NCBI GenBank assembly: GCA_017745175.1
Contig: JAGHZY010000003.1
Span: 62,001 to 126,000, forward strand
Source of the DNA: Sphingopyxis sp.
Lineage (GTDB): Bacteria; Pseudomonadota; Alphaproteobacteria; Sphingomonadales; Sphingomonadaceae
DNA: 64,000 nucleotides
Direction of reading: 5' to 3'
Below the pieces are notes generated by a model. That model saw only the letters and a list, made by a program, of their open reading frames with translations, ran no database searches and was not told the DNA's origin. Both the position numbers and the translations under genes were made by a program. Positions 27,788 through 47,759 of the stretch are shown here, piece by piece (within the stretch, counting starts at the first letter, position 1; each line of letters begins with the position of its first letter).

Positions 27788-27798
27788 ATATCCGACGC

Positions 27799-30479: not shown

Positions 30480-30490
30480 TGGTTCGGAGC

Positions 30491-31558: not shown

Positions 31559-32415
31559 GCCGCCCCGCGCCACGGCTGCGCGCGTTCCAGCTGCGCGGGG
31601 AGCAGCGCGTCGGCGCGCGTCCATTCGAAATCGGCGAGCAGTTTCCGGAGTTTGTCCGCCATCGCCGACAAGCCGCTGTAGTGGCGGATCTTCGACTTGA
31701 TCGGCGCGCCGGCGACGCGCGGCTGGCTGGGATCGATTTCCCAAGGATGGAAATAGAGGATGGCAGGATGCCCCTCGGCGTTCATTCGCGCGATCGCCCA
31801 GCGCGTGAAGCCATAGGGCAGCATCCGCATGAAGCCGCCGCCGCCTGCCGCGAGCGTGCGTCCGGCAAACCGCGCGGTCGTGACCGGCCATTCGATGAGG
31901 TCGCTGTCGGGAAGCGGCTGCCACGCATGGCGCGGGCTTTCGGGCCAGCCGTAGTGATCGTGGACGACCGGCGCGACGCTCGATGAATAGACATAGCCCT
32001 GTTCGGCGAGCACCGTGTGCGCCCACGGTGCGCGCGTATCGACCGAGAAGCTCGGCGCGCGATAACCCCGGATCGCGACGCCACCGATATCCTCGAGGAT
32101 CGTGCGCGCTTTCCTGAGATCGGCTGCGAATTCACCGGCGGTCATGTTGAAAACGCGCTTGTGATCGTAACCGTGGCTGGCAAGCTCGTGCCCCGCCGCG
32201 ACGACGCGCCGGATCAGCGCGGGATAGCGTTCGGCGACCCAGCCGAGGGTGAAGAAAGTGCCCTTGGCGCCGGCATCGGCGAAAATCTGCAGCACCGCGT
32301 CGCAATTCGCCTCGACCCGGCATTCGAGGCCGTCCCAGTCGGCGCGGTCGATCGTGCGCTCAAACGCGCCGACCTGGAACCAGTCCTCGACATCGACCGA
32401 GAGGCCGTTCTGCAT
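31555..32415 (-). CDS. XrtA-system polysaccharide deacetylase
   Basis: 286 residues. NodB-type fold: LSVDVEDWFQ with the catalytic Asp, GTFFTLGWVAERYP, HELASHGYDHKRVF with metal-binding His residues, GYRAPSFSVD and ILYFHPWEIDP. A DUF3473-type C-terminus follows. Removes N-acetyl groups from the exopolysaccharide, presumably in the periplasm or cytoplasm as no signal peptide is visible. Followed directly by the FemAB-like gene. Confidence 0.92.
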   Translation of the reverse strand: MQNGLSVDVEDWFQVGAFERTIDRADWDGLECRVEANCDAVLQIFADAGAKGTFFTLGWVAERYPALIRRVVAAGHELASHGYDHKRVFNMTAGEFAADLRKARTILEDIGGVAIRGYRAPSFSVDTRAPWAHTVLAEQGYVYSSSVAPVVHDHYGWPESPRHAWQPLPDSDLIEWPVTTARFAGRTLAAGGGGFMRMLPYGFTRWAIARMNAEGHPAILYFHPWEIDPSQPRVAGAPIKSKIRHYSGLSAMADKLRKLLADFEWTRADALLPAQLERAQPWRGAA

Positions 32416-32460
32416 TTTTCCTCACCTTCATCAGCGGGCTAGCCGATTTTGGCCGGGTTG

Positions 32461-33732
32461 TCAGGCGGCCCAGGTCCGCGACGTTGCCGGATTGGGTGCA
32501 TTGTCGGGATCGCGCTCGACCCACTCGATCAGGAGGTCGAGTACGCGGCGCAGCGCCGCATCCTGTTCGACGAGGCGCTCCTCGAGCGACGCGATCTGCT
32601 TTTCGAGCGCGGCGAGATGCTCGGGATCGATCGCCGGAGCGGCCGGCGCCGGCGTTGCGATTGCCTCGGGAGCGAGCTCGAACACGCCGTCATTCGCTTC
32701 GGGCGACGGCGGCAGGGCGGTCGCTGCCGGTTCGGCCGGCGCGGCGAAGGGGGCAGGCCCGTCCACGACGGGTTCGACCGCGCGCTGCGGCCATTCGGGC
32801 AATGCTTCGTTCGCGGGTGCCGGGACGGCGAAGGGCGCGGGGGTCGGCGCGACCGCGGTCGCGGCCGCCGCGACGACCTCCGCGACCGGGAGCGGCGCGA
32901 GCGTCGAGGCGTCGATGCCGCGATCGGCCTCGATCTCCGCCACGACCGAGCGGACGTTCTGCGCCGTGATGCGATGCATCTGCTCGACCGCACCGTAGAG
33001 CAGCAGGCGGCTCACCAGCACGTTCAATTTGCGCGGCACGCCTTCGCTGTAATCGAAGATTTCCTCGAACGCGTCGGGGCTGAAGCTGGGGCTGCCGGTC
33101 CAGCCGACCTTGCCGAGACGGTGGAGGATATAGGGCTCGACCTCCTCGGGCTCCATCGGGTCGAGATGGTGCGTTGCGATCACACGCTGGCGCAGTTGCT
33201 CGAGCGTCGGCGAGTGGAACAGCGTCTGGCGGAATTCGGGCTGGCCGAGCAGGAAGATCTGCAGCAGCGAATGGCCGCCAAGCTGGAAGTTCGAGAGCAT
33301 GCGCAGCTCTTCGAGCGCCGAGATGGCGAGATTCTGCCCCTCGTCGACGATCAGCAGCGTGCGGCGGCCCGCGCGCGCCTGTTCGCGCAGATATTGCTCC
33401 ATCGAACGCAGCAGTTCGGCCTTGCTCTGCCCTTCCCACTCGATGCCGAACTGTTCGGCGACGAGACGGAGGAGATCATCGCCCTCGACCTGCGTCGACA
33501 CCAGCTTGACGGCAGTCAGCCGGCTGGGGTCGATCGTGTTCATCAGATGGCCGACGAGCGTCGTCTTGCCCGCACCGACGTCGCCGGTGATGACGATGAA
33601 CCCTTCGCCCTGCGCAAGGCCGTAGCCCAGATAGGACATCGCCTTCCGGTGGGTACCGCTTTCGAAATAGAAATGCGGGTCAGGCGTCAGCTGGAACGGA
33701 CGGCCGGTGAAACCATAGAACTGATCGTACAT
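32461..33732 (-). CDS. XrtA-system-associated ATPase (ExeA/AAA-like) with long C-terminal extension
   Basis: 423 residues from ATG at 33732 (MYDQFYGFTGRPFQLTPDP). AAA domain with Walker A GDVGAGKTT, Walker B LLIVDEGQNL, and sensor/arginine region LLGQPEF...LRQRVIATHHL, typical of the PEP-CTERM-associated ATPase. After about residue 280 come an Ala/Pro-rich linker of about 100 residues and a predicted coiled coil (EHLAALEKQIASLEERLVEQ). The family core is near 270 residues, so this tail is extra. Likely couples polysaccharide assembly to envelope machinery. Confidence 0.88.
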   Translation of the reverse strand: MYDQFYGFTGRPFQLTPDPHFYFESGTHRKAMSYLGYGLAQGEGFIVITGDVGAGKTTLVGHLMNTIDPSRLTAVKLVSTQVEGDDLLRLVAEQFGIEWEGQSKAELLRSMEQYLREQARAGRRTLLIVDEGQNLAISALEELRMLSNFQLGGHSLLQIFLLGQPEFRQTLFHSPTLEQLRQRVIATHHLDPMEPEEVEPYILHRLGKVGWTGSPSFSPDAFEEIFDYSEGVPRKLNVLVSRLLLYGAVEQMHRITAQNVRSVVAEIEADRGIDASTLAPLPVAEVVAAAATAVAPTPAPFAVPAPANEALPEWPQRAVEPVVDGPAPFAAPAEPAATALPPSPEANDGVFELAPEAIATPAPAAPAIDPEHLAALEKQIASLEERLVEQDAALRRVLDLLIEWVERDPDNAPNPATSRTWAA

Positions 33733-33764
33733 CGCAATATTCCCGTTGCCCGAGGGACCAGCCC

Positions 33765-35480
33765 TCAGAAGTTGTAGCGCAGTCCCACCAAAGCTGAACC
33801 TATGAGCTGGCTGTTGAAGCCTTCCTGATCGAAAGCGTTGACGCTGGCCGCTGCGGTCCCGGTCAGACCGCGCCAGAAGCGGCGCGAATAGGCCGTGGTC
33901 AGGCCTGCCGACTGGACGTCGCTGGCACCCGGCGCGCCATTCTCGAAATGGTTGACGTACCCCGAAACGGTCAGGTCCGAATCGGCGTCGAGCTGGCGCC
34001 CCGCCGAGACGAAGAGATAATAATTCTCGTCCTTGATGCCGTTGAGATTGCCGATCGGCGACAGCAGGGGCGCGAGCAGCTTGCGCTGGTCGTAGCCGAC
34101 GCCGACGCCATAGCTCCACCGGCCGTAACGCGACGACAGGGTCGCCTGGACGCCGCGGCTGCGATATTGCGCCGAGGTCGCATTGCCGAGCTGGTTGCTG
34201 AGACAGCCGCCTCCCTGCTGCCCGAAGACGCAGGGGTTGATATCGCCGCTGATCGGGTTGCGGATCGGATCGAACTGCGTCGGCAGCGCGGCGAGCCCGC
34301 CCGACAACCCGCGGCCGAGGCTCGACAGCCCGTCGTAGACGCCGACCTGGATCGTCGTCGCATGATCGGCGCGATAGGTGAAGCTGCCGGTATAGATGGT
34401 GTCGCCATAGCGGCGGCCGACTCGTGCTGTAAGCGACGTGCGGCGGCTCGGCTGCCACATCACGCCGGCGTCCCAGATCAGCCCGTCGGTGTCGAACGAC
34501 AGCTGGCGCGGGCTCGATTTGTCGGTGATGAAGCGCCCGCCCGCGTCGCGGACCGGGACGCCATTGGCATCGACGACCGGATTGCGCTGGCCGATCTCGA
34601 TATCCTCATAACCGACACCGCCCAAAAGTGCGACGGTCGGCCCGATCGGCACGGTCACATCGGCGCGGGCATATTTGCCTTCATACCGCTGGTCGAGCTG
34701 GCTCGCATCCTCGCGCTCATAGCCGCCCGACACCTGCCAGCCGAACGGCAGGTCGCCGGGGCGTGCGCCGACGCTGGCCCAGGCGACATGGTTGGTCGAG
34801 CTGTCGAAAATATCCTGCGGCTGGCTGCCCGGCGACAGGACCGCGGGTTCGTCGATATCGACCTTGGTGTAGCCGAAACGATAGCCGGCCCCGACATCGA
34901 GCCCGCCGATACGCCGCGCGAAAGTCGGGCCGGCATAGACCGAATAGAGGTTGGCGACGTTGCTGGCATCGCCGATGAGCAGGCCGCTCGCGGCGCCCTG
35001 TCTGTCGGCGCGCGTGCGCGTCGCGAGCGCGCCGCCTTCGAGATTGAGCCCGCGCGCAGCCTCGATCCGGCCGCGGAGAAGGCCGCTGACCGTGTCCGAA
35101 TCGCCGAGGTCGCGATTCCAGCCGATGCGATGCTCGTAACGCACGGTTCCGGCCAGCTCGGCCCGGTTCGTCACGATCGCGGCATCGACGCCGACCGCAA
35201 GGTTTGTATAGGTGAGGACATCGCCGCCGTTCTTGAGGTCGGCGGTCAGCACCTGATCGACCTCGAGATAGGGGCTGACGGCGATCTGCCGCTGCGTGCG
35301 GCGGCGCTCGGAGCGCTTTTCCGAACGGCCCTGTTCCGGCGCGGGGCCACCGGCCGAAGCCGCGCTGCCGCCGCCCGAGCCGGGATCGCCCGAAAATTGG
35401 GCGTGCGCGCCCGTCGCCGTCCCGGCGAGCAGCAGGACCGCCAGCGTGCCCGCGCAACGCATGGTGGTAACGGTGCGCAT
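33765..35480 (-). CDS. XrtA/PEP-CTERM-associated outer-membrane beta-barrel protein
   Basis: 571 residues from ATG at 35480 with signal peptide MRTVTTMRCAGTLAVLLLAG...AHAQ. A low-complexity Gly/Ser/Arg stretch follows, then repeated amphipathic strands (GAGYRFGYTKVD, SVGARPGDLPFGWQVSGGY), ending in ...GLRYNF with the C-terminal Phe of a beta barrel. Matches the PEP-CTERM-associated outer-membrane family. Probable role is export or surface retention of the polysaccharide. The start shares one base with the kinase stop (TGATG). Confidence 0.87.
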   Translation of the reverse strand: MRTVTTMRCAGTLAVLLLAGTATGAHAQFSGDPGSGGGSAASAGGPAPEQGRSEKRSERRRTQRQIAVSPYLEVDQVLTADLKNGGDVLTYTNLAVGVDAAIVTNRAELAGTVRYEHRIGWNRDLGDSDTVSGLLRGRIEAARGLNLEGGALATRTRADRQGAASGLLIGDASNVANLYSVYAGPTFARRIGGLDVGAGYRFGYTKVDIDEPAVLSPGSQPQDIFDSSTNHVAWASVGARPGDLPFGWQVSGGYEREDASQLDQRYEGKYARADVTVPIGPTVALLGGVGYEDIEIGQRNPVVDANGVPVRDAGGRFITDKSSPRQLSFDTDGLIWDAGVMWQPSRRTSLTARVGRRYGDTIYTGSFTYRADHATTIQVGVYDGLSSLGRGLSGGLAALPTQFDPIRNPISGDINPCVFGQQGGGCLSNQLGNATSAQYRSRGVQATLSSRYGRWSYGVGVGYDQRKLLAPLLSPIGNLNGIKDENYYLFVSAGRQLDADSDLTVSGYVNHFENGAPGASDVQSAGLTTAYSRRFWRGLTGTAAASVNAFDQEGFNSQLIGSALVGLRYNF

Positions 35481-36502
35481 CACGCGCCTCCCTGTCCGTA
35501 ATAGGTGCCGAAACGGCGTCCGCCCGGCGAATATTTCACACCGTTGAGGAGCAGCTGGATATGCGGGCACGCACCCATCAGGCCGATCGCATCGCGCAGC
35601 GCCGATTCAAGCGTCGCATCGGCGCGCACGACCATGATCGTCTGGCCGACATGGCCTGCGAGCACTGCGGCGGGCGATGCCGCGAGCACCGGCGGCGAAT
35701 CGAGAATGACGATGCGGCCGGGCGCGCCGGCTTCGAGCTGCGCCAGCAACGCCTCGGTGCGCGCCGAAGCGAGCAGTTCGGTGTCGTGCATATGCTGCGT
35801 ACCCGCGGGCATGACCTTCAGACCCGGAATGTCGGTCTGGATCAGGCAGTCGGCGAGCGGCAGGCGCGGGTCGGCGAGCGCGTCCATGAGGCCGGGTCCA
35901 TCCTCCAGTCCCAGCGCTTCGAGCACGCTCGGCTTGGCGATGTCGGCGTCGATCAGCAACACGTCGTGATCGGCCTCGACCGCGAGGCTCAAGGCGAGAT
36001 TGACCGCCGAAAAGGTCTTGCCCTCGCCCGGGTTGGCCGAGGCGATCAGCACGCGGTGGCCGCGCGGCAGGATCGGGCGGTTGCCGACGCCCCCGAAATT
36101 GCGGATCAGCTCGCGCTTCACGATACGATATTCTTCGGAAATGCCCGTGACCGGCGTGCCGGGCACGATCATACCCCGCGCCGCGAGGCGTTCGCGGTCG
36201 ATCGTTCCCTGCCGCGCCGGCACGATCGCAGGCGCGGCCTTGGCCACATCCTTGCGCGGCGAAGCCTTCGGCGCGGCCGCGGGTTCGACCGCGGGCGCCG
36301 CTTCGACGACGGGATCGAGAATTTCGGGCTGCGGGATTTCCGCGACCGCCTCGCCCATGACCTTCTTCGCCTTCTTCTCCGGTTCGGGCGGCAGGCTCGA
36401 CACGTCGATCGTCGGCGCATTGGCGGCGGGATCGAGGCCGAACATGTCGGCAGCGCGTTCGAGGAGCGAGGGCGGGCGCTTGACTTTGCGTTGGTCGTTC
36501 AT
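35480..36502 (-). CDS. XrtA-associated tyrosine autokinase (BY-kinase)
   Basis: 340 residues from ATG at 36502. An Ala/Pro-rich N-terminal linker of about 100 residues precedes the kinase domain with Walker A ASANPGEGKTFSAVNLA, Walker A' LLIDADIAKPS and Walker B IVILDSPPV. The tail GGRRFGTYYGQGGA keeps only a short Tyr pair, not a long tyrosine cluster. In Wzy-type systems this kinase pairs with the chain-length protein encoded immediately upstream to control polymer length. Confidence 0.9.
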   Translation of the reverse strand: MNDQRKVKRPPSLLERAADMFGLDPAANAPTIDVSSLPPEPEKKAKKVMGEAVAEIPQPEILDPVVEAAPAVEPAAAPKASPRKDVAKAAPAIVPARQGTIDRERLAARGMIVPGTPVTGISEEYRIVKRELIRNFGGVGNRPILPRGHRVLIASANPGEGKTFSAVNLALSLAVEADHDVLLIDADIAKPSVLEALGLEDGPGLMDALADPRLPLADCLIQTDIPGLKVMPAGTQHMHDTELLASARTEALLAQLEAGAPGRIVILDSPPVLAASPAAVLAGHVGQTIMVVRADATLESALRDAIGLMGACPHIQLLLNGVKYSPGGRRFGTYYGQGGA

Positions 36503-36516
36503 GTCATCGTCCCCCG

Positions 36517-38049
36517 TCACGCAACCATGCCGCGCTGGATGAATTCGGCGACCAGCAGCAGCGCGTAGAGGCCGACGAGCGCGCCACCGCCGCCGGCGAG
36601 CCATACGAGCTTCTTGCGGCGGTCGAGGTGGCGTTCGGGCGTCACGACTTCGGTAATCGATCCGATCACGGGCAGCCCGCTCGCACGCTCGAGCTTGGCC
36701 GCCGTGGCATAGCTGGTCCGCACCTGCGCGAGGCCGAAGGCGGCGCCGATGCCGCCGCCGATGCCGGCGAGCAGCACGAGCGTCAGGAACAGCGGCCGGT
36801 TGGGCGCCGCGGGGCTCGTCGGTTTCGACGGCGGATCGAGCAGTTCGATCTTGATCGCGTCGGTTTCGGTCTGCACCTCGCCGCGCAGGCGAACCTGCTC
36901 GCGTTGCGCGAGCAGCTTGTCGTACTGCGCCTTGAACGCGGTATATTCACCGTTGATCCGGTCGTACTCGGCGGCGATGCCGGGGTTCTGGATCTGCTGG
37001 GTGGTGATCTTCGCTATGTCGCCCGTCAGCTGGCTCTTGCGCGCCGACAGCGCGCTGACGGTCGCCTGACGCTCGGCGCGCATCGCGGCGAGCGAGGCAT
37101 AAGCCGGATTCTGCATCCCGCCGCCGCCGCCCGTTCCTTCGCGATCGGCCATGGCCTTCAGCGAGGCGATCTGGCTTTTCAGCGCGATCACGTCGGGGTG
37201 CGCATCGGTCAGGCCGCGCGCGCGCATCGACGACAATTCGTTCTGTGCACCGGCGAGTTGCTGGCGCGCAACGCCGCCGCCGACACCGCCGCCGGCGCCG
37301 GGGATCGACTGCGGGGTCGAGGCGAGCTGGCCGTTCGCGGCGGCAAGCTGCGCCTGCGCCGAAACGAGCTGCGAATCGATCTGGTTCAGTTCGGCGCGCG
37401 CGGCGTCGACGCGCTGCGCCGGCGACCCGGCGCCGCCCGGGATGAGTCCGATATTCTGCGCTTCGAACGCCGCGCGCCGCGCTTCGACCTCGCGCAGCGC
37501 CTTTTCGCGGTCGGCGATCTGCGCATCGAGGAACTTCAGCCCCTCGCGCGCATTCATCCGGCCACCGCGCAGCTGGTCGTCGCGGAACACTGTGATCAGG
37601 CTGTCGAGCACGCCCGAGGCGAGCTTGGCATTGTCGGCGTCCGACAGGCTGCCGACCGCGACGCTCGAGGTGATCTCGAAGATATTATCCTGCTGCGGAA
37701 CGACCTTGATGCTCTTTTGCAGCATCGCGACCGCACCGGCCTTGTCGCGCTCGCCTGCGCCTGCGGGGAGCAGGCCGGTGGTCGCCGCAACCTTTTCCAT
37801 GTTGCGCGCGCTGGTCAGCGTCTCGCGGATCTGGTCGATCTGCGGACGCCCGCCCCCGACCTGCGCATCGTCGGGCAATATCTCGTTGATATCGACGAGC
37901 AGACGCGCGCGGCTGTCGTAGCGGTTCGGGATCGAGGCGATCGCGAGCCAGCCGAGGATGCAGATGCCCCATGCCACGGCGAGCACCAGCCACCGGCGCG
38001 TCCAGACGCTGTGTACTGCCACCCGGAATTCGTCGTAGAGGCTGGTCAT
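36517..38049 (-). CDS. XrtA-system polysaccharide chain-length determinant (Wzz-like)
   Basis: 510 residues. Wzz topology: membrane segment near residues 20-38 (WLVLAVAWGICILGWLAIA), a large periplasmic coiled-coil region with a Gly-rich linker around 245-260, the PxxP motif region near TSPAAPNRPLFL, and a second membrane segment (LTLVLLAGIGGGIGAAFG). An extra hydrophobic segment lies at the extreme C-terminus. Sets exopolysaccharide length together with the tyrosine kinase encoded next. Confidence 0.92.
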   Translation of the reverse strand: MTSLYDEFRVAVHSVWTRRWLVLAVAWGICILGWLAIASIPNRYDSRARLLVDINEILPDDAQVGGGRPQIDQIRETLTSARNMEKVAATTGLLPAGAGERDKAGAVAMLQKSIKVVPQQDNIFEITSSVAVGSLSDADNAKLASGVLDSLITVFRDDQLRGGRMNAREGLKFLDAQIADREKALREVEARRAAFEAQNIGLIPGGAGSPAQRVDAARAELNQIDSQLVSAQAQLAAANGQLASTPQSIPGAGGGVGGGVARQQLAGAQNELSSMRARGLTDAHPDVIALKSQIASLKAMADREGTGGGGGMQNPAYASLAAMRAERQATVSALSARKSQLTGDIAKITTQQIQNPGIAAEYDRINGEYTAFKAQYDKLLAQREQVRLRGEVQTETDAIKIELLDPPSKPTSPAAPNRPLFLTLVLLAGIGGGIGAAFGLAQVRTSYATAAKLERASGLPVIGSITEVVTPERHLDRRKKLVWLAGGGGALVGLYALLLVAEFIQRGMVA

Positions 38050-38095
38050 CGCTCGAAATCAGTCCTTGGGAAGGGTTGGTGGGCCGTCGCTGGCG

Positions 38096-38752
38096 TCAGA
38101 ACATGCTTTCGGGGATGATGATCACATCGCCGGGCTGCAGCCGCACATTCGCCTTGATATCGCCCCGCTTGATCAGGTCGTTGAGCCGCAGGCCGAACTC
38201 CTGCTGCTTCCCGCTACCCTTGTCGAAACGGACGAGTCGCGCTTTGTTTCCAGCGGCATATTCGCCGAGCCCGCCGACTGCAATCATTGCATCGAGCACA
38301 GTCATGTTGGCGCGAAAGGGGATCGACGCCGGCTTTTCGGTCGCACCGACGACGCGCACCTGCTGCGAAAAGGTGCTGTTGAAGCTGGTGACGATCACGC
38401 TGACGATCGGGTCGTTGATGTATTGGCTGAGCTGGAGCTTGATGTCCTGCTGCAGCATCGTCGGGGTTTTCCCCACCGCGGGCATGTCGGTGATCAACGG
38501 CGTCGTGATCCGGCCGTCGGGACGCACCTGCACCTTGCCGCCGAGTTCGGGGTTGCGCCACACGAAGATCTGGAGCTCGTCGAGCGGGCCGATGATATAT
38601 TCCTCGCCCGGCCCCTCCTGGTTCGCGACGAAGTTCGCGCTGGGGAGCTGCGGCGCGCTGCCGCCGGCGCCCATGCACCCCGTCAGCGCGGTCGCGGCGA
38701 TGCCCGAGGCGAGCGCGGCGCGCGCGATACGGAGCGAGGGGAACGAAGCCAT
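38096..38752 (-). CDS. XrtA-system exopolysaccharide export lipoprotein (Wza-like)
   Basis: 218 residues from ATG at 38752. Lipoprotein signal with LTGC, Cys26. Polysaccharide export domain (YIIGPLDELQIFVWRNPEL, VRPDGRITTPLITDMPAVG) and a SLBB-like segment (VRVVGATEKPASIPFRANMTVLDAM) end with RLQPGDVIIIPE. First gene of the exopolysaccharide operon. The 170 bp between it and the decarboxylase gene end at 38925 is AT-richer and should contain the operon promoter, but I cannot assign boxes. Confidence 0.92.
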   Translation of the reverse strand: MASFPSLRIARAALASGIAATALTGCMGAGGSAPQLPSANFVANQEGPGEEYIIGPLDELQIFVWRNPELGGKVQVRPDGRITTPLITDMPAVGKTPTMLQQDIKLQLSQYINDPIVSVIVTSFNSTFSQQVRVVGATEKPASIPFRANMTVLDAMIAVGGLGEYAAGNKARLVRFDKGSGKQQEFGLRLNDLIKRGDIKANVRLQPGDVIIIPESMF

Positions 38753-38924
38753 AATTCCATCAACCTTTCGAGCCGCAGGGAGAGCCGCGGTGCGGAAACC
38801 CGCGGCAACAGCCATTGCGTCGGCCTAGCCATTGCTCGAAAAGGGTGAACATAATGTTAGTATTGAACGAGGTTTGGCCCGTAGCATTCCCGACATGTCC
38901 CGATAAGGAACAGATTTTACGGCA

Positions 38925-40154
38925 TCAGACGAGCATTTCGCGCGCGGCGCCCTGCCCCAGGAAGGTCGCCGGGCTCGCACTTGCGCCATAGGCGCCCGCC
39001 TGAAAGATCGCGATGAGGTCGCCGACGTCGGCGCGCGGCAGCGCAACCTGATCGCCAAGCCGGTCAAGCGGAGTGCACAGGCAGCCGACGACCGATACCG
39101 TTTCGACAGGCTCGCGGCCGAAGGCGCCCGCCACCGCGATCGGATAGTTACGGCGGATCACGGTGCCGAAATTGCCGCTCGCGGCGAGTTGATGATGGAG
39201 GCCGCCGTCGGTGACGAGGAAGGTTTCGCCGTGGCTGGTCTTCCGGTCAACGATGCGGGTCAGATAGACCCCGGCTTCGGCGACGAGCCAGCGGCCGAGT
39301 TCCATTGCGAAATGACTCTTGCCGAGCACCGGGTCGCGCGCCGCCAGCGTTTCGGCGAGAGCCGCGCCGACGGCGGTGACATCGACCGGCTTGTCGCCGG
39401 GAAAATAGGGCACGCCCATGCCGCCGCCGAGGTTGACGAGCGGCGGGGCCTCCCCGATTTCGTTCGCGAGCCGCGCGGCGAGCGCGACGGTCTGCGCCTG
39501 CGTTTCGGCGATGGCCGCGGCGTCGAGCGCCTGCGATCCCGCGAAAATATGGAAGCCCTGCCAGTCGGCACCGGCCTCGATCAGGCGGCGGACAAGGGCC
39601 GGAACGCCGACGGCATCGACGCCGAAGGGCTTGGCGCCGCCGCCCATCTTCATACCTGACCCCTTGAGGTCGAAGTCGGGGTTGACGCGCACCGCGAGGC
39701 TGGGCGTGAGACCGAGATGGTCGGCGATCGACAGCGCGCGTTCGGCTTCGCCCGCGGATTCGAGATTGAGCGTCGTGCCGGCGGTGATCGCGGCTTCGAG
39801 CTCGCGGTCGCGCTTGCCGGGGCCCGCGAAGCTGATGTCGCCCGCCGGCATCCCGCTGGCGAGCGCGGCCTTGAGCTCGCCCCCCGACGCGACGTCGAAC
39901 CCGTCGACGAGCCGCGCCATGAAGGCGAGCAAAGGCGCATAGGGGTTCGCCTTCATCGCATAGTGAAGCTGCACCTCGCGGGGCATAGCGGCGCGCCATT
40001 CGGCGACGCGCGCGGTGAGCATCGCACTGTCATAGACGAACAGCGGCGTGTCGCCGGCGACATCGGCGAGCGCCTCGGCGCGGTCACCGCCGATCAGCAG
40101 CATGCCGCTTGCGTCCGCGCGAAAGCCGGGCGGGATCGGGCCGTGCGGCTTCAT
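38925..40154 (-). CDS. PLP-dependent decarboxylase, exosortase A-associated
   Basis: 409 residues from ATG at 40154, overlapping the ligase stop by ATGA. Fold type III alanine-racemase/DAP-decarboxylase family: PLP Lys in YAMKANPY, FDVASGGEL, FAGPGKRDREL, GGGMGVPYF, and the second-domain Cys in VVGCLCTPLDRLG. The exosortase A-linked family has an unknown amino-acid substrate. The ligase partner suggests that it acts on an activated or carrier-bound amino acid; that is inference. Confidence 0.9.
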   Translation of the reverse strand: MKPHGPIPPGFRADASGMLLIGGDRAEALADVAGDTPLFVYDSAMLTARVAEWRAAMPREVQLHYAMKANPYAPLLAFMARLVDGFDVASGGELKAALASGMPAGDISFAGPGKRDRELEAAITAGTTLNLESAGEAERALSIADHLGLTPSLAVRVNPDFDLKGSGMKMGGGAKPFGVDAVGVPALVRRLIEAGADWQGFHIFAGSQALDAAAIAETQAQTVALAARLANEIGEAPPLVNLGGGMGVPYFPGDKPVDVTAVGAALAETLAARDPVLGKSHFAMELGRWLVAEAGVYLTRIVDRKTSHGETFLVTDGGLHHQLAASGNFGTVIRRNYPIAVAGAFGREPVETVSVVGCLCTPLDRLGDQVALPRADVGDLIAIFQAGAYGASASPATFLGQGAAREMLV

Positions 40155-41683
40155 GCCGCTACCTTCGCTGCCCATTCGGCGGCGATCGCAACGCGGTCGA
40201 GCTTGCCGTTCGGGTTGCGCGGCAGTTCGTCCCGCCATTCGATCGCCTGCGGCTGCATGAAATTGGGGAGGTTCCGGCGGAGATAGGCGGCGAGTTCCCC
40301 GTCGTCGCGGGCGCCGCCCTTCCCGCGCACGATCAGTACGATCGCGGCGCCGAGGCGCTCGTCGGGAACCCCGAACGCGACCGCTTCGTAGATCAGCCCC
40401 GACGCCACCGCGACATCCTCGACCTCGGTCGGACTGACACGGTTGCCCGCGGTCTTGATCATCGCATCGTCACGTCCGACGAAATAGAGGAGATGATTGG
40501 CGTCGCGGCGCACCGTGTCGCCCGACCACACCGCCATGCCGCCATATTCGGACGCGCGCGGCGCGGGTTTGAAACGCTGCGCGGTGCGTTCCTCGTCGCG
40601 CCAATAGCCCTTGGCGACGAGTGGGCCGCAATGGACGAGTTCGCCCGGTTCCTCGTCGGCGGTGATCGTGCCGTCGGTCCGGCACACAAGAATCTCGGCA
40701 TGCGGGATCGCGCGGCCCATCGAGGTCGGATGATCGGCGACGAGTTTCGGGTCGAGAAAGGTCGAACGGAAGGCCTCGGTCAGCCCGTACATCGGATAGA
40801 TATCGGCGTTCGGGAAGGTGGCGCGCATCGCGCCGATCAGCGAGGGGGTAAGCGCGCCGCCGCTGTTGGTCAGCCGCTTGAGGAGCGCCGCCGTTTCGGC
40901 CGGCCATTCGGCCTCGACGAGCTGCACCCAGAGCGGCGGCACGCCCGCGAGCGTCGTGACCCCATGCCGCGCGACGGCCTTCACGACGTCGCGCGCGGTA
41001 AGATAGTCGAGCGGCACGACCGCGGCGCCGGCGAACCAGCTCGAAAGCAGCTGGTTCTGGCCATAGTCGAAGCTCAACGGCAGCACGCCGAGCACCCGGT
41101 CGCCGGGCACGACCTTGAGGTAGGAAGCGACGCTTTCGGCGCCGAGCCACAGATTTGCGTGGCTGAGCATCACACCCTTCGGCCGCCCGGTCGAGCCGCT
41201 GGTATAGAGAATGGCCGCCAGATCGTCAGGTTCGGCGATCGACGGCGGTAACCCCTGCCCTCCCGAATCAATGACTTCCTCGCCGATCTTGATATCCTGC
41301 ACCGCGCATTCGACCGGCAGGCCGGCGCCGAGCATGTCGGCGCGCGAGCCGTTTGTGACGAGCAGCTTCGCGCCGCTGTCGGCGAGGATATGCAGGGCCT
41401 GAGGCCCCTTGAGCAACGGATTGACCGGGACGTGGATCAACCCCGCGCGCGCCGCGGCGAGTGGCATCAGGCACGCGAGGCGCGTCTTGGCGCTCCAGCT
41501 CGCAACGCGCTCGCCGGGGCCGCCCGCCTGATCGAGCAGCCATGACGCCAGCCGTCCGACGCCGGCATCGAGTTCGGCGAAGGTCGTGACCCGGTCACCG
41601 GTCAGCAGCGCAGCCGCATCCGGCGCTCCGCAGCGGGCAAGATGGTCGATCGGCCTTGAAGATGGGTTTTCGGCTTTGGTCAT
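40151..41683 (-). CDS. AMP-forming acyl/aminoacyl ligase, exosortase A-associated
   Basis: 510 residues. ANL superfamily: P-loop ILYTSGSTGRPKGVMLSH, MYGLTEAF, GYWRDEERTAQRF, hinge GRDDAMIKTAGNRVSPTEVE and catalytic Lys in RNPNGKLDR. Activates a carboxylate as an adenylate and loads CoA or an acyl carrier protein. An acyl carrier protein gene lies in the divergent operon 1 kb away, making it the likely acceptor (inference). Coupled to the decarboxylase gene. Confidence 0.9.
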   Translation of the reverse strand: MTKAENPSSRPIDHLARCGAPDAAALLTGDRVTTFAELDAGVGRLASWLLDQAGGPGERVASWSAKTRLACLMPLAAARAGLIHVPVNPLLKGPQALHILADSGAKLLVTNGSRADMLGAGLPVECAVQDIKIGEEVIDSGGQGLPPSIAEPDDLAAILYTSGSTGRPKGVMLSHANLWLGAESVASYLKVVPGDRVLGVLPLSFDYGQNQLLSSWFAGAAVVPLDYLTARDVVKAVARHGVTTLAGVPPLWVQLVEAEWPAETAALLKRLTNSGGALTPSLIGAMRATFPNADIYPMYGLTEAFRSTFLDPKLVADHPTSMGRAIPHAEILVCRTDGTITADEEPGELVHCGPLVAKGYWRDEERTAQRFKPAPRASEYGGMAVWSGDTVRRDANHLLYFVGRDDAMIKTAGNRVSPTEVEDVAVASGLIYEAVAFGVPDERLGAAIVLIVRGKGGARDDGELAAYLRRNLPNFMQPQAIEWRDELPRNPNGKLDRVAIAAEWAAKVAA

Positions 41684-41718
41684 CGGCTGTTAGGAGTGGA
41701 GTGATAGAGGGCGGCACC

Positions 41719-42714
41719 ATGCAAGGGAACGGTGAACATCACGCTAATGATATGCGGTTGCCCGCCACGGCGCGCGCGGCCGGCTTTGCGTCGCCGTTCG
41801 ACCGCGGATGCTGGTTCGATTTGTTGGAGGCACATGGCTTTGCGGGCCGGGGGCGTTTCGATGCTCATGGCAGCGCCGGCCCGACGACGGCATGGCTGCC
41901 GCTACGGATCGAGAAGCCGGGCGACTTCGCGGGGCTGACCAACTGGTACAGCTTTTCGATCCGTCCGCTCTTCATCGGCGAGGAAAAGTGCAGCGACGCC
42001 TTGCGCGCACTCTTTGCCGACCTCCGCCGAAACGCTGCGCGCCTGACGCTCTACCCTGTCGCCGAAACCGCGGAACTTAACGCCGCGCTGCACGCCGCAG
42101 GCTGGTGGGTGAAAGCGGCCCCGGCCGGCGATCGCCACTGGCTCGACCTTGGCGAGATGGACCATGACGCCTGGTGGGCAAGCCGCCCCGGCGCGTTGCG
42201 GAATACCGTCCAGCGCAAGGCGAAGAAAGGCGTCGTCGATATCCAGCTGCTCACCGAATTCGATCCGGGAAGCTGGACCGCCTATGAAACAATCTATGCC
42301 GCGAGCTGGAAACCCGAAGAGGGGCATCCCGCCCTGCTCCGCGCCTTTGCCGAGACCGAGGGCACGGGCGGACGCCTGCGCATGGGGATCGCGCGCATCG
42401 ACGGCATCCCCGTCGCCGCGCAGTTCTGGACCGTCGAGGGCAGCACGGCCTTCATCCACAAGCTCGCGCATGTCGAGGACAGTTTGAAAGCCTCGCCGGG
42501 CACCTTGCTTTCGGCCGCATTGTTCCGCCATGTGATTGAGGTCGATGGCGTCAAGCGCGTCGATTTCGGGACCGGCAACGACGGCTACAAGCGCGACTGG
42601 ATGAACCGGCACGACCCGTTGTGGCGCATCGAGGCTTTCAATCCGTCGCGCGTCGCGGCATGGGGTCCGGCATTGAAGACATTCGCCCGTTCGCTGCTCA
42701 GGAAAGACTCATGA
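41719..42714 (+). CDS. GNAT / BioF2-like acyltransferase, exosortase A-associated
   Basis: 331 residues. I chose the ATG at 41719, which has an AGAGGG ribosome site 7 bases upstream; the frame opens earlier at 41656 inside the divergent ligase gene start. BioF2-type motifs: WWASRPGALRNTVQRKAKKG, YAASWKPEEGHPALLRAF, FIHKLAHVEDSLKASPGTLLSAAL and VDFGTGNDGYKRDWM. It ends ATGA into the acyl carrier protein, so it may use the carrier-bound acyl group as donor (inference). Confidence 0.85.
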   Translation: MQGNGEHHANDMRLPATARAAGFASPFDRGCWFDLLEAHGFAGRGRFDAHGSAGPTTAWLPLRIEKPGDFAGLTNWYSFSIRPLFIGEEKCSDALRALFADLRRNAARLTLYPVAETAELNAALHAAGWWVKAAPAGDRHWLDLGEMDHDAWWASRPGALRNTVQRKAKKGVVDIQLLTEFDPGSWTAYETIYAASWKPEEGHPALLRAFAETEGTGGRLRMGIARIDGIPVAAQFWTVEGSTAFIHKLAHVEDSLKASPGTLLSAALFRHVIEVDGVKRVDFGTGNDGYKRDWMNRHDPLWRIEAFNPSRVAAWGPALKTFARSLLRKDS

Positions 42715-42977
42715 CCGAAGCCAACACCGTCGACGCCACTCTTCGCGCCCTGCTCGCCGACGTGCTTGGCCTCGGCGAAGCCCGCGCCGCCGCGCTGACC
42801 GGGGATAGCGGCCTGTTCGGCGAACTCCCCGAGTTCGATTCGATGGCGGTCGCCACGGTGCTGACCGAGATGGAAGACCGGCTGGGCATCCTGATCGACG
42901 ATGACGAGATCGACGGCGAGATCTTTGAAACCTATGGCAATTTGCTCGCCTTTTCGCAGCGTAAAGTGACCGGTTGA
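42711..42977 (+). CDS. Acyl carrier protein, exosortase A-associated
   Basis: 88 residues from ATG at 42711 (ATGA overlap with the GNAT gene). Four-helix carrier fold with the phosphopantetheine Ser in EFDSMAVATVL, then DRLGILIDDDEIDGEIFETYGNL. The motif is DSM rather than the DSL of fatty-acid ACPs, as in stand-alone specialised carriers. Presumably loaded by the nearby AMP ligase. Confidence 0.9.
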   Translation: MTEANTVDATLRALLADVLGLGEARAAALTGDSGLFGELPEFDSMAVATVLTEMEDRLGILIDDDEIDGEIFETYGNLLAFSQRKVTG

Positions 42978-43000
42978 AGGTGTTGCCTTCCCTTCCTTAC

Positions 43001-43076
43001 CGTCATCCCGGCGGAGGCCGGGATCTCGCCATCGCGTTTTCAGCAGCGACGAGATCCCGGCCTTCGCCGGGATGAC
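43001..43076. repeat. REP-like palindrome, family B
   Basis: A 76-bp element starting CGTCATCCCGGCGGAGGCCGG and ending in the inverted form CCGGCCTTCGCCGGGATGAC. It shares the outer CGTCATCCCGG ends with family A but has a different core. A second copy is at 48696-48772. It lies between the acyl carrier protein and hydrolase genes of one operon. Confidence 0.88.
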
Positions 43077-43092
43077 AGCATGGGGAATGCGG

Positions 43093-43773
43093 ATGACTAC
43101 GCCGAACCCGGAACATGTCCTGCGCATCGCCCCCGCGGGCTTGCCCCGCGCCACGATCCTGATCGTCCCGCCGCTGTTCGAGGAAGCGAACCGGACGCGC
43201 CGCACATTGGTGCTCGCGATGCGCGCGCTGGCGGCCGAGAGGTTTGCGGCGGTGCTGCCCGACCTGCCTGGGCAGAATGAGAGCGTTGTTCCGCTGGAAC
43301 AAGTCGATCTGGTGTGCTGGCAGGATGCGCTGGCCGAATTGGTATCCGGAATCGATGGCCCGACGATCATCGCTTCGTTTCGCGGTGGCGCGCTGATCGA
43401 TCAAAAGGCGAAAGCTAAAGCGTGGTGGCGCCTTGCGCCCGTCGGCGGCGCGTCGCTGCTCCGCACGCTGATGCGCGCGCGCGTGAGCGCCGACCGTGAG
43501 GCCGGAGTCATGTCGTCGCTCGAAGGTCTTCAGGATGAAGCGAAAACCGCGCCACTGTTGCTCGCCGGCAATCGTCTGTCGTCCGCCATGATCGCGCAGC
43601 TTGGCGCGAGCGAGGCGCAAGTGGTCGAGCCTTTGCGCAGCGCCGGCCTCGGCGCCGATGGCATCGCCGGCACGCCGCTGTGGCTGCGCGCCGAACCCGG
43701 CGAGGACGCGGCAATGGCGGAAGCGATCGCCGCCGATATTTCCGTATGGAGCAAGACATGCGGCATCAGCTGA
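43093..43773 (+). CDS. Hydrolase 2, exosortase A-associated (alpha/beta-hydrolase-like)
   Basis: 226 residues from ATG at 43093, preceded by GGGGAA; alternative ATGs at 43072 and 43087 overlap or abut the REP element. Alpha/beta-hydrolase-like: ILIVPPLFEEANRTRR (oxyanion region) and LPDLPGQNES. At the nucleophile elbow the sequence is ASFRGGA, residues 94-100, with Arg97 where Ser or Cys would be expected. It may therefore be non-catalytic or a partner of hydrolase 1. Overlaps the next gene by 16 bases. Confidence 0.82.
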   Translation: MTTPNPEHVLRIAPAGLPRATILIVPPLFEEANRTRRTLVLAMRALAAERFAAVLPDLPGQNESVVPLEQVDLVCWQDALAELVSGIDGPTIIASFRGGALIDQKAKAKAWWRLAPVGGASLLRTLMRARVSADREAGVMSSLEGLQDEAKTAPLLLAGNRLSSAMIAQLGASEAQVVEPLRSAGLGADGIAGTPLWLRAEPGEDAAMAEAIAADISVWSKTCGIS

Positions 43774-44621
43774 GCTTCGAATGCGAAGACGTCACGCTCG
43801 CCGCGAGCCTCGACGAGGCGCCGGGCAGCACGGGCCTGCTGATCGTGTCGGGCGGCAATGAAATCCGCAGCGGCGCACATCGCGGAATGGCGATGCTGGC
43901 GGCGCGGATTGCTGAAGCGGGCCATCCGGTGTTTCGTTTCGACCGGCGCGGGATCGGTGACAGCGAGGGCGCGAATGGCGGCTTCGAGAGCAGCGGACCC
44001 GATATTGCCGCAGCGATTGCGGCGTTTCGCGCAGCGGCGCCGCAGATCACGCGCATTATCGCCTTCGGCAATTGCGATGCGGCGAGCGCGCTGCTGCTCC
44101 ACCAGCCGCTTGCGCTCGATGCGCTGATCGTCGCCAATCCGTGGACATACGACGGCGAGCCAGAGGAAGCCGACGAGCCCGCGCTCCCCCCGGCTTCCGC
44201 CATCCGCGCACGTTATCTGGCGCGGCTGAAGGATCCGAAAAGCCTGCTCAGACTGATCAGGGGCGAGGTCGATTTCCGCAAATTGGTCCGCGGTCTGTCA
44301 GCGCTCAAGGTGCCGGCCGGCAGCGCTGCGCCCGACAGTCTCGCGGCGCAAGTCGACCGCGCGATCGCGGGGCTCGACATCCCCGCGAAGATCCTGCTCG
44401 CGACCGGCGACCGGACCGCGCAGGCGTTCATCGAAAACTGCCCGTCGGCATTGAAACGCGTTCCGGTCGAGCGCCTCGCCAGCCCGTCGCACAGCTTTAT
44501 GGGGGATGATGGCGCGTGGTTGGCTGAACGGATTTTGGATATATTGGGGCCGATAACGCCCCGCCCCGATGCCCATGTCAGGTTCGGGGTGGATTCCGGA
44601 CATTCGTCATCCCGGACTTGA
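43758..44621 (+). CDS. Hydrolase 1, exosortase A-associated (Cys-nucleophile type)
   Basis: 287 residues from ATG at 43758, which has GGAG 6 bases upstream; an ATG at 43746 is an alternative. Alpha/beta-hydrolase fold with FDRRGIGDSEG, nucleophile elbow FGNCDAAS (Cys106), and a late His in SPSHSFMGDDG. A Cys nucleophile suggests thioesterase- or acyltransferase-like chemistry, fitting a carrier-protein pathway (inference). The last residues are encoded by the start of a REP element, which supplies the stop codon. Confidence 0.85.
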   Translation: MRHQLSFECEDVTLAASLDEAPGSTGLLIVSGGNEIRSGAHRGMAMLAARIAEAGHPVFRFDRRGIGDSEGANGGFESSGPDIAAAIAAFRAAAPQITRIIAFGNCDAASALLLHQPLALDALIVANPWTYDGEPEEADEPALPPASAIRARYLARLKDPKSLLRLIRGEVDFRKLVRGLSALKVPAGSAAPDSLAAQVDRAIAGLDIPAKILLATGDRTAQAFIENCPSALKRVPVERLASPSHSFMGDDGAWLAERILDILGPITPRPDAHVRFGVDSGHSSSRT

Positions 44622-46424: not shown

Positions 46425-47759
46425 ATGACGAGATACTGGCTTATCATGCTCACCGCCCTCTCCCTGCTGGCACCAACCGGGGCCGAGGCGCGCAAGGTCG
46501 CGCTGGTGATCGGCAACGGCGATTATGCGAACACCAGCCGGCTGAACAACCCCGCGAACGACATCAGGATCATCGCCGCGTCGGCGAAGCAGGCGGGGTT
46601 CGACGATGTGACGGTCGCCGCCGACCTCGCCGTCAACGACTTCCAGAAAGCGATGCGCGATTTCCGCGCGAAGGCCGACGGGGCCGAGGTCGCGATGGTC
46701 TATTATGCCGGCCACGGGATCGAGGCGCAGGGCAAGAACTGGCTGATCCCGACCGACGCGCAGCTCAAATCCGACCTCGACCTGCCCTATGAGGCGATCA
46801 ACCTCGACCGGCTGATGGAATCGGTGTCGGGGGCGCAGATCCGCATGGTCGTGCTCGATTCGTGCCGCAACAATCCCTTCGGTCGCTCGTGGCGGTCGGG
46901 GACGCGCGCGGTGGTGAATGGCCTTGCGGGGGTCGAGGCAGACGACGTGCTCGTGATCTTTGCCGCCGCGCCGGGGCAGACCGCCGCCGACGGGACGAGC
47001 GGAAACTCACCCTTTGCGGTATCGCTGGCAAAGCGGTTGCCGCAGCCCGACATGCCGGTGCAACTGCTCGGCGGCCTCATCCGCGACGATGTACTCAAGG
47101 CGACGGGCGGCAGCCAGCGTCCGTTCGTCAGCGCAAGCATCACCGGGACGCCCGTCTATCTGGTACCGCGCACGGCACCGGCGAATGCGCCGGCGCTCGG
47201 AGACCGCAGCGGGCTGGAGGAACTGTTGTGGAAGGGCGCATTGGCCGAAAACGACGTCCGCGCCTTCAGCGCCTATCTCGCCGAATTCCCGGCGGGCAAA
47301 TATGCCGTACAGGCGAACGAGAATATCAGCCGCCTGTCGAAGGAACCCGGGACGGTCATCCCGCCGGTGACGATGGTCGCCATGAAGGAGCCGCCCCCCG
47401 CGGCGCGGCCGCCGACACGGAAATTCGCGCTGTCGAACATACGCATCGAATGCGTGAAGCTGACCGGACGCCTCGGTCTCGGGCTGCCCGACCAGCTGTT
47501 CCTGCGCTTCAACACCGGGCAGCGCTTTCCCGAAGGCAAGAGCGAGATTTATTCGATCAGGAAAGGGGAGAGCTGGGTCGTTCCCGAGCGTTTCGAATTC
47601 GACCAGCCGGTGAGTTTCCAGCTCCGCGAGTTCGACGATATCGGCGGGAGCGACAATATCGGCACGATCGATATCGGCGATGCGCCGGGGATGTTCACGA
47701 AGACGCTCGACGGCGATGCGAGTGATTACAAGGTGACCTATACGCTGACGGTCAGCTGA
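46425..47759 (+). CDS. Secreted caspase-family (C14) protease-like protein
   Basis: 444 residues. Signal peptide (MTRYWLIMLTALSLLAPTGAEA), then a caspase p20 fold: KVALVIGNGDYANTSRLNNPANDI, His98 in YYAGHGIE and Cys147 in VVLDSCRNNPF form the catalytic dyad. After about residue 270 come a short helical region and a C-terminal domain of roughly 110 residues with no recognised family. Bacterial homologues cleave after basic residues or act as regulators. Probably periplasmic. Confidence 0.9.
   Translation: MTRYWLIMLTALSLLAPTGAEARKVALVIGNGDYANTSRLNNPANDIRIIAASAKQAGFDDVTVAADLAVNDFQKAMRDFRAKADGAEVAMVYYAGHGIEAQGKNWLIPTDAQLKSDLDLPYEAINLDRLMESVSGAQIRMVVLDSCRNNPFGRSWRSGTRAVVNGLAGVEADDVLVIFAAAPGQTAADGTSGNSPFAVSLAKRLPQPDMPVQLLGGLIRDDVLKATGGSQRPFVSASITGTPVYLVPRTAPANAPALGDRSGLEELLWKGALAENDVRAFSAYLAEFPAGKYAVQANENISRLSKEPGTVIPPVTMVAMKEPPPAARPPTRKFALSNIRIECVKLTGRLGLGLPDQLFLRFNTGQRFPEGKSEIYSIRKGESWVVPERFEFDQPVSFQLREFDDIGGSDNIGTIDIGDAPGMFTKTLDGDASDYKVTYTLTVS

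Follow-up and report, generated by a model that had tools for sequence, protein, structure and literature searches.

Amino acids are known to reach polymers of the bacterial envelope by way of a ligase, a carrier protein and an aminoacyl transfer; the Dlt system places D-alanine on teichoic acid in this manner, and the Alm system places glycine on lipid A. A second kind of pathway has the amino acid decarboxylated while it is bound to the carrier, as in butirosin formation (BtrJ-BtrI-BtrK), where the substrate is glutamate and the product enters an aminoglycoside antibiotic. We analyzed a 64,000-nucleotide (nt) stretch of DNA from a Sphingopyxis sp. (contig JAGHZY010000003.1; hereafter the window; the genome is 4.25 Mb in 141 contigs, ~92% complete), in which six genes adjoin an exosortase A (XrtA)/exopolysaccharide locus. 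They encode a ligase, a pyridoxal phosphate (PLP) decarboxylase, an acyl carrier protein (ACP), a GNAT acyltransferase and two proteins known as hydrolases 1 and 2. We regard it as fairly probable that these genes constitute a decoration pathway, in which an acidic amino acid would be loaded onto the ACP, decarboxylated there and moved to a sugar of the exopolysaccharide. This would be the general plan of the Dlt and Alm systems, extended by a carrier-bound decarboxylation that these two lack, and with other transferases.

Two further systems of carrier-bound decarboxylation have been described. In vicenistatin formation (VinN-VinL-VinO; PMC11284099), 3-methylaspartate is loaded onto a stand-alone ACP and PLP-dependent decarboxylation follows on the ACP. 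In the AFC-BC11 pathway of Burkholderia (AfcQ-AfcK-AfcP; PMC12186527), the stand-alone ligase AfcQ accepts L-aspartate but not beta-alanine in vitro, and aspartate bound to the stand-alone carrier AfcK is turned into beta-alanine by the PLP decarboxylase AfcP; Arg311 of AfcQ corresponds to Arg331 of VinN. Judged by sequence, the features of this kind of pathway recur at the window locus, namely a decarboxylase of the BtrK group, a ligase pocket with the Asp and Arg, and a stand-alone carrier with its Ser. The surroundings differ. The vicenistatin genes feed a polyketide synthase with VinM, VinK and VinJ, and no such partners were identified at the window locus; the Burkholderia pathway makes a lipopeptide through a beta-alanine trimer, and the available parts of PMC12186527 mention no role in polysaccharide or exosortase. 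The butirosin system, which has the closest solved decarboxylase and a carrier-bound substrate, differs in its use of glutamate.

The adjoining exosortase A locus has a resemblance of its own, to the Wbp/Vim linking-sugar pathway of the type IX secretion system (T9SS; PMC7468200). In the model put forward there, VimE, a putative deacetylase, and VimA attach an amino acid to an amino sugar, and this sugar is linked to cargo C termini. The deacetylase, the FemAB-like VimA (which matches the XrtA FemAB family) and an amidotransferase of that pathway belong to families found in the exosortase A locus, where TIGR03006, TIGR03019, TIGR03108 and TIGR03109 lie at 25892-32415 beside the sorting enzyme; this is a family-level match only. 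The authors speculate likewise for exosortase without the genes of the present locus, and the words decarboxylase, acyl carrier and carrier protein are absent from the main text.

The NCBIfam families TIGR03098 to TIGR03101 carry names that state no substrate, and the names hydrolase 1 and hydrolase 2 misfit the active sites of these proteins. A literature search (titles and the starts of abstracts) found no function for the set of ligase, ACP and decarboxylase (together, the trio). Nothing pertinent to beta-alanyl polysaccharide was among the matches listed (12 of 594), and the terms searched for were absent from the main text of Haft 2006 (PMC1569441). The core chemistry is of a known kind; new, as far as the literature search shows, are its proposed use on exopolysaccharide, the Cys/Arg hydrolase pair and the exosortase A link.

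The decarboxylase and its probable carrier-bound substrate

A single-sequence search of the PDB with the decarboxylase returned BtrK at the top (7ru7 and 2j66, 228.8 and 228.6 bits), followed by diaminopimelate decarboxylase at 125.9 bits; with the family profile, BtrK scored 367.9 against 246.7 bits for the next match. The PDB name of BtrK is L-glutamyl-[BtrI acyl-carrier protein] decarboxylase. The active-site residues agree with this ranking. The diaminopimelate decarboxylase LysA has, beside the Cys, a Glu that binds the far amino group of diaminopimelate, and the LysA rows of our alignment carry Cys-Glu, whereas Cys-Thr is found in BtrK and in 45 of the 46 rows of the decarboxylase family (here and below, row counts include the window, and a second Sinorhizobium meliloti pSymB copy, L071, was dropped from the row and locus counts for the ACP, decarboxylase, ligase, hydrolases and trio; the decarboxylase of locus L076 scored too low to enter the 46-row set). 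Elsewhere in the same genome is a second, LysA-like gene, which encodes Cys-Glu (L002). In a tree from which L003 was excluded, the family together with BtrK split from two LysA-type rows at 100/100. Identification of the decarboxylase as LysA was rejected, given its Cys-Thr and a TIGR01048 (lysA) score of 224.8 bits, under the cut-off of 297.9. The decarboxylase very probably acts on a carrier-bound rather than a free amino acid; because it is BtrK-like, it probably works after loading. The decarboxylation of an amino acid by the PLP enzyme, as proposed in an earlier note on this DNA, is thus retained as a prediction, but with the free amino acid replaced by a bound one.

The sole row of the 46 without Cys-Thr is an Azoarcus protein with Cys-Ala (L075:11923-13236), a relative of 43% identity that is annotated as alanine racemase and has FolE and formylmethanofuran genes nearby. 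Neither a ligase nor an ACP was found near it.

The ligase pocket

Asp206, Met298, Phe305, Arg306, Ser307 and Lys494 of the ligase are invariant in 42 of 42 rows (L041, L063, L066, L067 and L075 are outside this set, as none reached the limit in the stretch). A review (PMC11253843) describes the VinN pocket as having D230 on the amino group, with F231 and S299 facing a shortened loop that carries K330 and R331. The window ligase has Asp206, Tyr207, Ser274 and Arg306 at these places, the VinN residues being taken from the review and matched by reading. Three Streptomyces relatives of the ligase carry Cys-Lys-Arg in the same loop, which supports the register. VinN (3wvn, 173.8 bits) is also the best single-domain PDB chain for the window ligase, which is 79 to 91% identical to Sphingopyxis ligases among the matches listed.

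A Burkholderia arboris stretch (L076) was used in place of AfcQ. Its frames are, in row, AurF-like, unassigned, decarboxylase, ligase, acyl-CoA dehydrogenase-like and citrate synthase, and the order from the decarboxylase onward fits afcP, afcQ and afcS. The ligase carries GLTEAFRST, has the Arg and the Lys 192 residues apart, as are Arg311 and Lys503 of AfcQ, and is 49.5% identical to the window ligase over 463 residues. We infer that L076 is an afc locus. With a pocket like those of VinN and AfcQ, the window ligase would most likely activate the side-chain carboxylate of aspartate and not a hydroxy acid, and we hold L-aspartate to be its probable substrate. The earlier note had allowed an amino or a hydroxy acid for activation and ACP loading, and the pocket favors the former.

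The two hydrolases and the GNAT as acyl-transfer candidates

Hydrolase 1 has a Cys at the place of the nucleophile, together with an Asp and a His, in all 28 rows, a Shinella fusion counted. Its AlphaFold2 model (predicted local distance difference test, pLDDT, 86.6) places Cys106 between strand 99-105 and helix 107-115, and the Foldseek matches are alpha/beta-hydrolases with moderate TM-scores. Hydrolase 2 carries an Arg at the nucleophile elbow in 27 of 27 rows; its model (pLDDT 91.6) has Arg104 right after strand 98-103 and likewise matches alpha/beta-hydrolases. No invariant His was found among 18 of its rows. Both proteins were rejected as serine alpha/beta-hydrolases, since Cys (28/28) and Arg (27/27) replace the Ser nucleophile, and hydrolase 2 was rejected as an active hydrolase, as the usual nucleophile is absent. 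The hydrolase names used in the earlier note are corrected in this regard. Members of the fold with a Cys often transfer acyl groups. Hydrolase 1 is probably an acyltransferase and hydrolase 2 probably its non-catalytic partner.

Because fused forms exist, the two probably make up one acyl-transfer unit. A frame of 620 amino acids (aa) in genome G126 (L059:5983-7842) matches both families (TIGR03101, 131.3 bits; TIGR03100, 166 bits). The Shinella frame of 602 aa (L078:8853-10661) matches TIGR03100 in its second half (102.6 bits) and TIGR03101 weakly in its first (40.4 bits); Gly replaces the Arg in the hydrolase 2-like half, and a score of 40 bits may reflect only the common fold.

The GNAT matches PF13480 (61.4 bits, Pfam) and no NCBIfam family. 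PF13480 alone is uninformative, and the view of the protein as a generic acetyltransferase was given up on an hhalign comparison with the FemAB family (probability 87.1, E 4e-06, 261 columns), which makes it a distant relative of the XrtA FemAB of the adjoining locus.

Proposed pathway

In the pathway that we propose, the ligase would adenylate the side-chain carboxylate of an acidic amino acid, for which L-aspartate is the likeliest candidate, and load the amino acid onto the ACP. The decarboxylase would then strip the alpha-carboxylate from the bound amino acid to give beta-alanyl-ACP, or gamma-aminobutyryl (GABA)-ACP were glutamate the substrate. Beta-alanyl-ACP from L-aspartate is the likely product, because the decarboxylase is BtrK-like and the ligase pocket VinN/AfcQ-like. 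These two steps are drawn from residues and from the nearest characterized relatives. The later steps are read from gene content, and we are evenly divided about them: the beta-aminoacyl group would be taken off the ACP by hydrolase 1, the Cys enzyme that hydrolase 2 would hold, by the FemAB-like GNAT, or by both, and the final acceptor would be a sugar amino group of the exopolysaccharide that the deacetylase of the locus has freed. An amino sugar is proposed as the acceptor on account of the VimE/VimA model of the T9SS and the FemAB kinship of the GNAT. We infer substrate, acceptor and product alike. The earlier note was right in outline, and its interpretation, partly supported here, can be made specific; its proposal that the acyltransferase passes the acyl group on agrees with the predicted role of the GNAT.

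The exosortase A-system ligase, decarboxylase and hydrolase families have had names without substrates, and each now receives a proposed reaction with the residues concerned; the two hydrolases are recast as a Cys acyl-transfer enzyme and a non-catalytic partner. The predicted product is an exopolysaccharide in which a sugar bears a beta-alanyl group or a similar amine. Such a cationic beta-aminoacyl polysaccharide could matter for the charge of biofilms.

Conservation and co-occurrence

The ligase profile retrieved at least 80 GTDB loci; among the matches listed, 75 titles are of sphingomonads and 5 give only Alphaproteobacteria or Proteobacteria. In the 59 stretches of at least 21,000 bases among these matches, the trio is present in all 59, hydrolases 1 and 2 are both present in 50 and both missing in 9, and an XrtA-type export protein flanks 52. 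Since it is kept across the listed loci, the gene arrangement is not due to chance.

We also surveyed 398 genomes of the phylum, with E limits of 1e-120 for the decarboxylase and 1e-40 each for XrtA and hydrolase 1. The decarboxylase is over the cut-off in 30 genomes, of which 29 have the ligase over its cut-off and one (G126) has it below; no genome of the 398 has the ligase over the cut-off without the decarboxylase over its own. At the 51 decarboxylase loci, window included, a ligase lies within 10 kb in 46 and an ACP in 44, and at one further locus (L079) the annotation includes an ACP not detected by the model. Exosortase A is over the cut-off in 35 genomes, 27 with and 8 without the decarboxylase. 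Hydrolase 1 is found in exactly those 27; neither the 8 genomes that have only exosortase A nor the 3 that have only the decarboxylase contain it (Fisher test within the exosortase A genomes, hydrolase 1 against decarboxylase, 4e-8, descent not corrected for); the hydrolase 1 of G126 (166 bits, cut-off 168.45) was counted as present. Within one family (f40) with 9 exosortase A genomes, it occurs in 3 of 3 with the decarboxylase and in 0 of 6 without. In genome G318, hydrolase 1 and the decarboxylase are separated by ~0.5 Mb, even on the assumption of a circular contig, and linkage is therefore not required for their co-occurrence. Nine more genomes have the decarboxylase below the cut-off, none with XrtA over the cut-off or hydrolase 1 at the limit. 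The XrtA FemAB is present in all 35 exosortase A genomes (33 over the cut-off) and in 0 of the 3 decarboxylase genomes without exosortase A; for the XrtA-type deacetylase the counts are 35 of 35 and 1 of 3.

Exopolysaccharide or sorted protein

In four stretches, from S. meliloti pSymB, Aureimonas, Shinella and genome G107 (L073, L074, L078 and L038), the ligase-decarboxylase pair is surrounded by glycosyltransferases and accompanied by a polysaccharide deacetylase. The XrtA of the window has no match over 35 bits in these four stretches; the first three carry no exosortase annotation, and in G107 no hit to exosortase A was obtained with an E limit of 1e-40. A Paracoccus locus (L079) has the trio and two glycosyltransferases, with no annotated deacetylase. 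Because it lies in polysaccharide loci where exosortase A was not found, the core trio probably serves a glycan. The window's own genome has one marginal match to the PEP-CTERM family TIGR02595 (17.6 bits, cut-off 16) and nothing over the cut-off for PF07589. With E allowed up to 0.1, TIGR02595 matches are absent from three genomes with the trio, XrtA and hydrolase 1 (G024, G223 and G283), and other genomes have up to 38. The earlier note had left the product on either the exopolysaccharide or a sorted protein, and the polysaccharide is now the better supported of the two, in view of the single marginal PEP-CTERM match and of the trio without exosortase A.

The one own-genome match is a Ser-rich 426-aa frame (L164:231-1511, G000:C48), a candidate exosortase target whose tail is PEP-CTERM-like, with Pro-Val-Pro-Ala-Pro, a hydrophobic part and an Arg-rich part. 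Genome G155 (L044) has no exosortase A match (E ≤1e-40) and yet has 16 TIGR02595 matches, an XrtA-type deacetylase and the trio; another exosortase may serve its PEP-CTERM proteins. In rhizobial-type loci, the gene upstream of the ligase encodes a protein of ~290 aa that resembles a GNAT by eye. This protein has no match in Pfam (L073, L074 and L078) or NCBIfam (the same and L038), hhalign gives no link to FemAB or the window GNAT, and two GNAT matches in the PDB are marginal (E 0.067 and 0.076).

Alternative explanations

A number of observations weigh against the decoration pathway or parts of it. BtrK is a long branch in the tree and its exact position is weak (86/47), and the decarboxylase of L076, although part of the presumed afc locus, is only a distant relative of the window enzyme (134 bits), with Cys-Ser in place of Cys-Thr. 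By whole-chain score, LgrA, in which two domains match (110.4 and 140.7 bits), and 8xjz both rank above VinN. In 10 of the 42 ligase rows Tyr207 is replaced by Ala, all ten with Thr for Ser274; there are therefore two pocket types, and substrates may differ. The hhalign comparison of the hydrolase 1 and hydrolase 2 families is weak (probability 66.3, 36 columns), so that their kinship rests on the fold. Five of the nine stretches that lack both hydrolases among the matches listed have the FemAB, the GNAT and the export protein, and an acyltransferase shared by all loci is lacking. Polysaccharide loci may often contain a deacetylase in any case, and relatives of the ligase and decarboxylase occur also in natural product-like clusters (L077, L162 and L163). 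The last point bears on the idea that the genes make a diffusible small molecule, which the β-ketoacyl-ACP synthase III and acyl-CoA dehydrogenase genes of L077, the afc-like cluster of L076 and the ectoine-type genes of L163 would suit. Given the export protein at most sphingomonad-type stretches and the rhizobial-type copies among glycosyltransferases, we think this quite improbable. Less probable still is that the decarboxylase is of the ordinary kind for diaminopimelate, ornithine or lysine and makes a free amine, with the ligase and ACP working on a fatty acid. The fatty-acyl ligase model does score as high on the ligase as the amino-acid adenylation model (246.9 and 240.9 bits), and the TIGR01048 score is still considerable; set against these are its cut-off, the Thr in place of the LysA Glu, the separate LysA-like gene, and Asp206 and Arg306 in every ligase row.

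Two other accounts keep the proposed chemistry and change one end of it. L-glutamate as the substrate, with a GABA group as the outcome, would agree with the PDB name of BtrK, the nearest solved decarboxylase, but the ligase pocket follows VinN (3-methylaspartate and aspartate) and AfcQ (aspartate), and we consider glutamate unlikely. We give similarly low credence to the amine, on a glycan or lipid, being the acceptor (a linking sugar) for PEP-CTERM proteins cut by exosortase A. The coincidence of hydrolase 1 with exactly the 27 of 398 genomes that have both decarboxylase and XrtA speaks for this, whereas the trio is also known from stretches without an XrtA match, the decarboxylase over the cut-off is missing from 8 of 35 XrtA genomes, and the TIGR02595 matches are wanting in the three genomes with the full set and marginal in the window's own. 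A fuller form of it, in which the Cys/Arg pair and FemAB put the beta-aminoacyl group on a glycan, its amine acts as the exosortase A nucleophile for PEP-CTERM proteins, and AfcQ-like iteration could give an oligo-beta-alanine arm, is slightly more doubtful again. Were the amine indeed used in this way, the acceptor of PEP-CTERM sorting would become directly testable.

On Streptomyces plasmids (L163:8956-18224 and L160/L161:8998-13910), the trio stands beside ectoine synthase, diaminobutyrate acetyltransferase and holo-ACP synthase genes. Might an ectoine-like product be built on a carrier there?

Gene arrangement and neighboring features

The coordinates are collected in Table 1. The six genes, at 38925-44621, are all open and lie in two divergent, tightly coupled sets, as the earlier note had described, with overlaps of 4 nt (decarboxylase/ligase and GNAT/ACP) and 16 nt (hydrolase 2/hydrolase 1). 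Gene starts were chosen among in-frame codons, and the 34-nt inverted repeat runs into the start assigned to hydrolase 2. Of the four proteins with a counterpart among the exosortase A-associated families, three exceed the curated cut-offs, namely those of TIGR03099 (565.3 bits, cut-off 478.45), TIGR03098 (629.3, 592.35) and TIGR03100 (203.8, 168.45); hydrolase 2 is far under that of TIGR03101 (34.8, 202.75). The ACP was assigned by PF00550 (24.9 bits) and carries E-[LF]-D-S in 31 of 31 rows.

Table 1. Features of the six-gene locus and of the adjoining exosortase A locus (window positions)
Feature	Position	Strand	Length	Family or remark
Exosortase A/exopolysaccharide locus	25892-38815	-		TIGR03108, TIGR03109, TIGR03087, TIGR03019, TIGR03006, TIGR03015, TIGR03018, TIGR03007, TIGR03027
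XrtA FemAB in exosortase A locus	30491-31498
Polysaccharide deacetylase in exosortase A locus	31555-32415
PLP decarboxylase, type III (alanine-racemase fold)	38925-40154	-	409 aa	BtrK-like; TIGR03099
AMP-forming amino-acid:carrier ligase (predicted)	40151-41683	-	510 aa	VinN/AfcQ-type pocket; TIGR03098
Divergent gap	41684-41718	.	35 nt	Ligase start codon to GNAT start codon
GNAT/FemAB-like acyltransferase	41719-42714	+	331 aa	PF13480
Stand-alone ACP	42711-42977	+	88 aa	Phosphopantetheine Ser; PF00550
Inverted repeat	42995-43083	.	34 nt	88% complementary, 21 nt apart; ACP/hydrolase 2 interval
Hydrolase 2, alpha/beta-hydrolase fold	43072-43773	+	233 aa	Arg104 at nucleophile place
Hydrolase 1, alpha/beta-hydrolase fold	43758-44621	+	287 aa	Cys106/His245/Asp218; TIGR03100

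The adjoining locus comprises an amidotransferase, XrtA, a glycosyltransferase, the FemAB, the deacetylase, an ATPase, a kinase, and chain-length and export proteins; the kinase (TIGR03018) is under its family cut-off, at 200.8 against 230.65 bits. Elsewhere in the window, a type I secretion set (TolC, HlyB-type and HlyD-type) lies at 15273-20493, and a caspase-like Peptidase_C14 protein follows downstream of the six genes at 46425-47759. Opposite-strand frames near 44621 and 47850 carry WIPDQVRDD-like peptides at their end or beginning.

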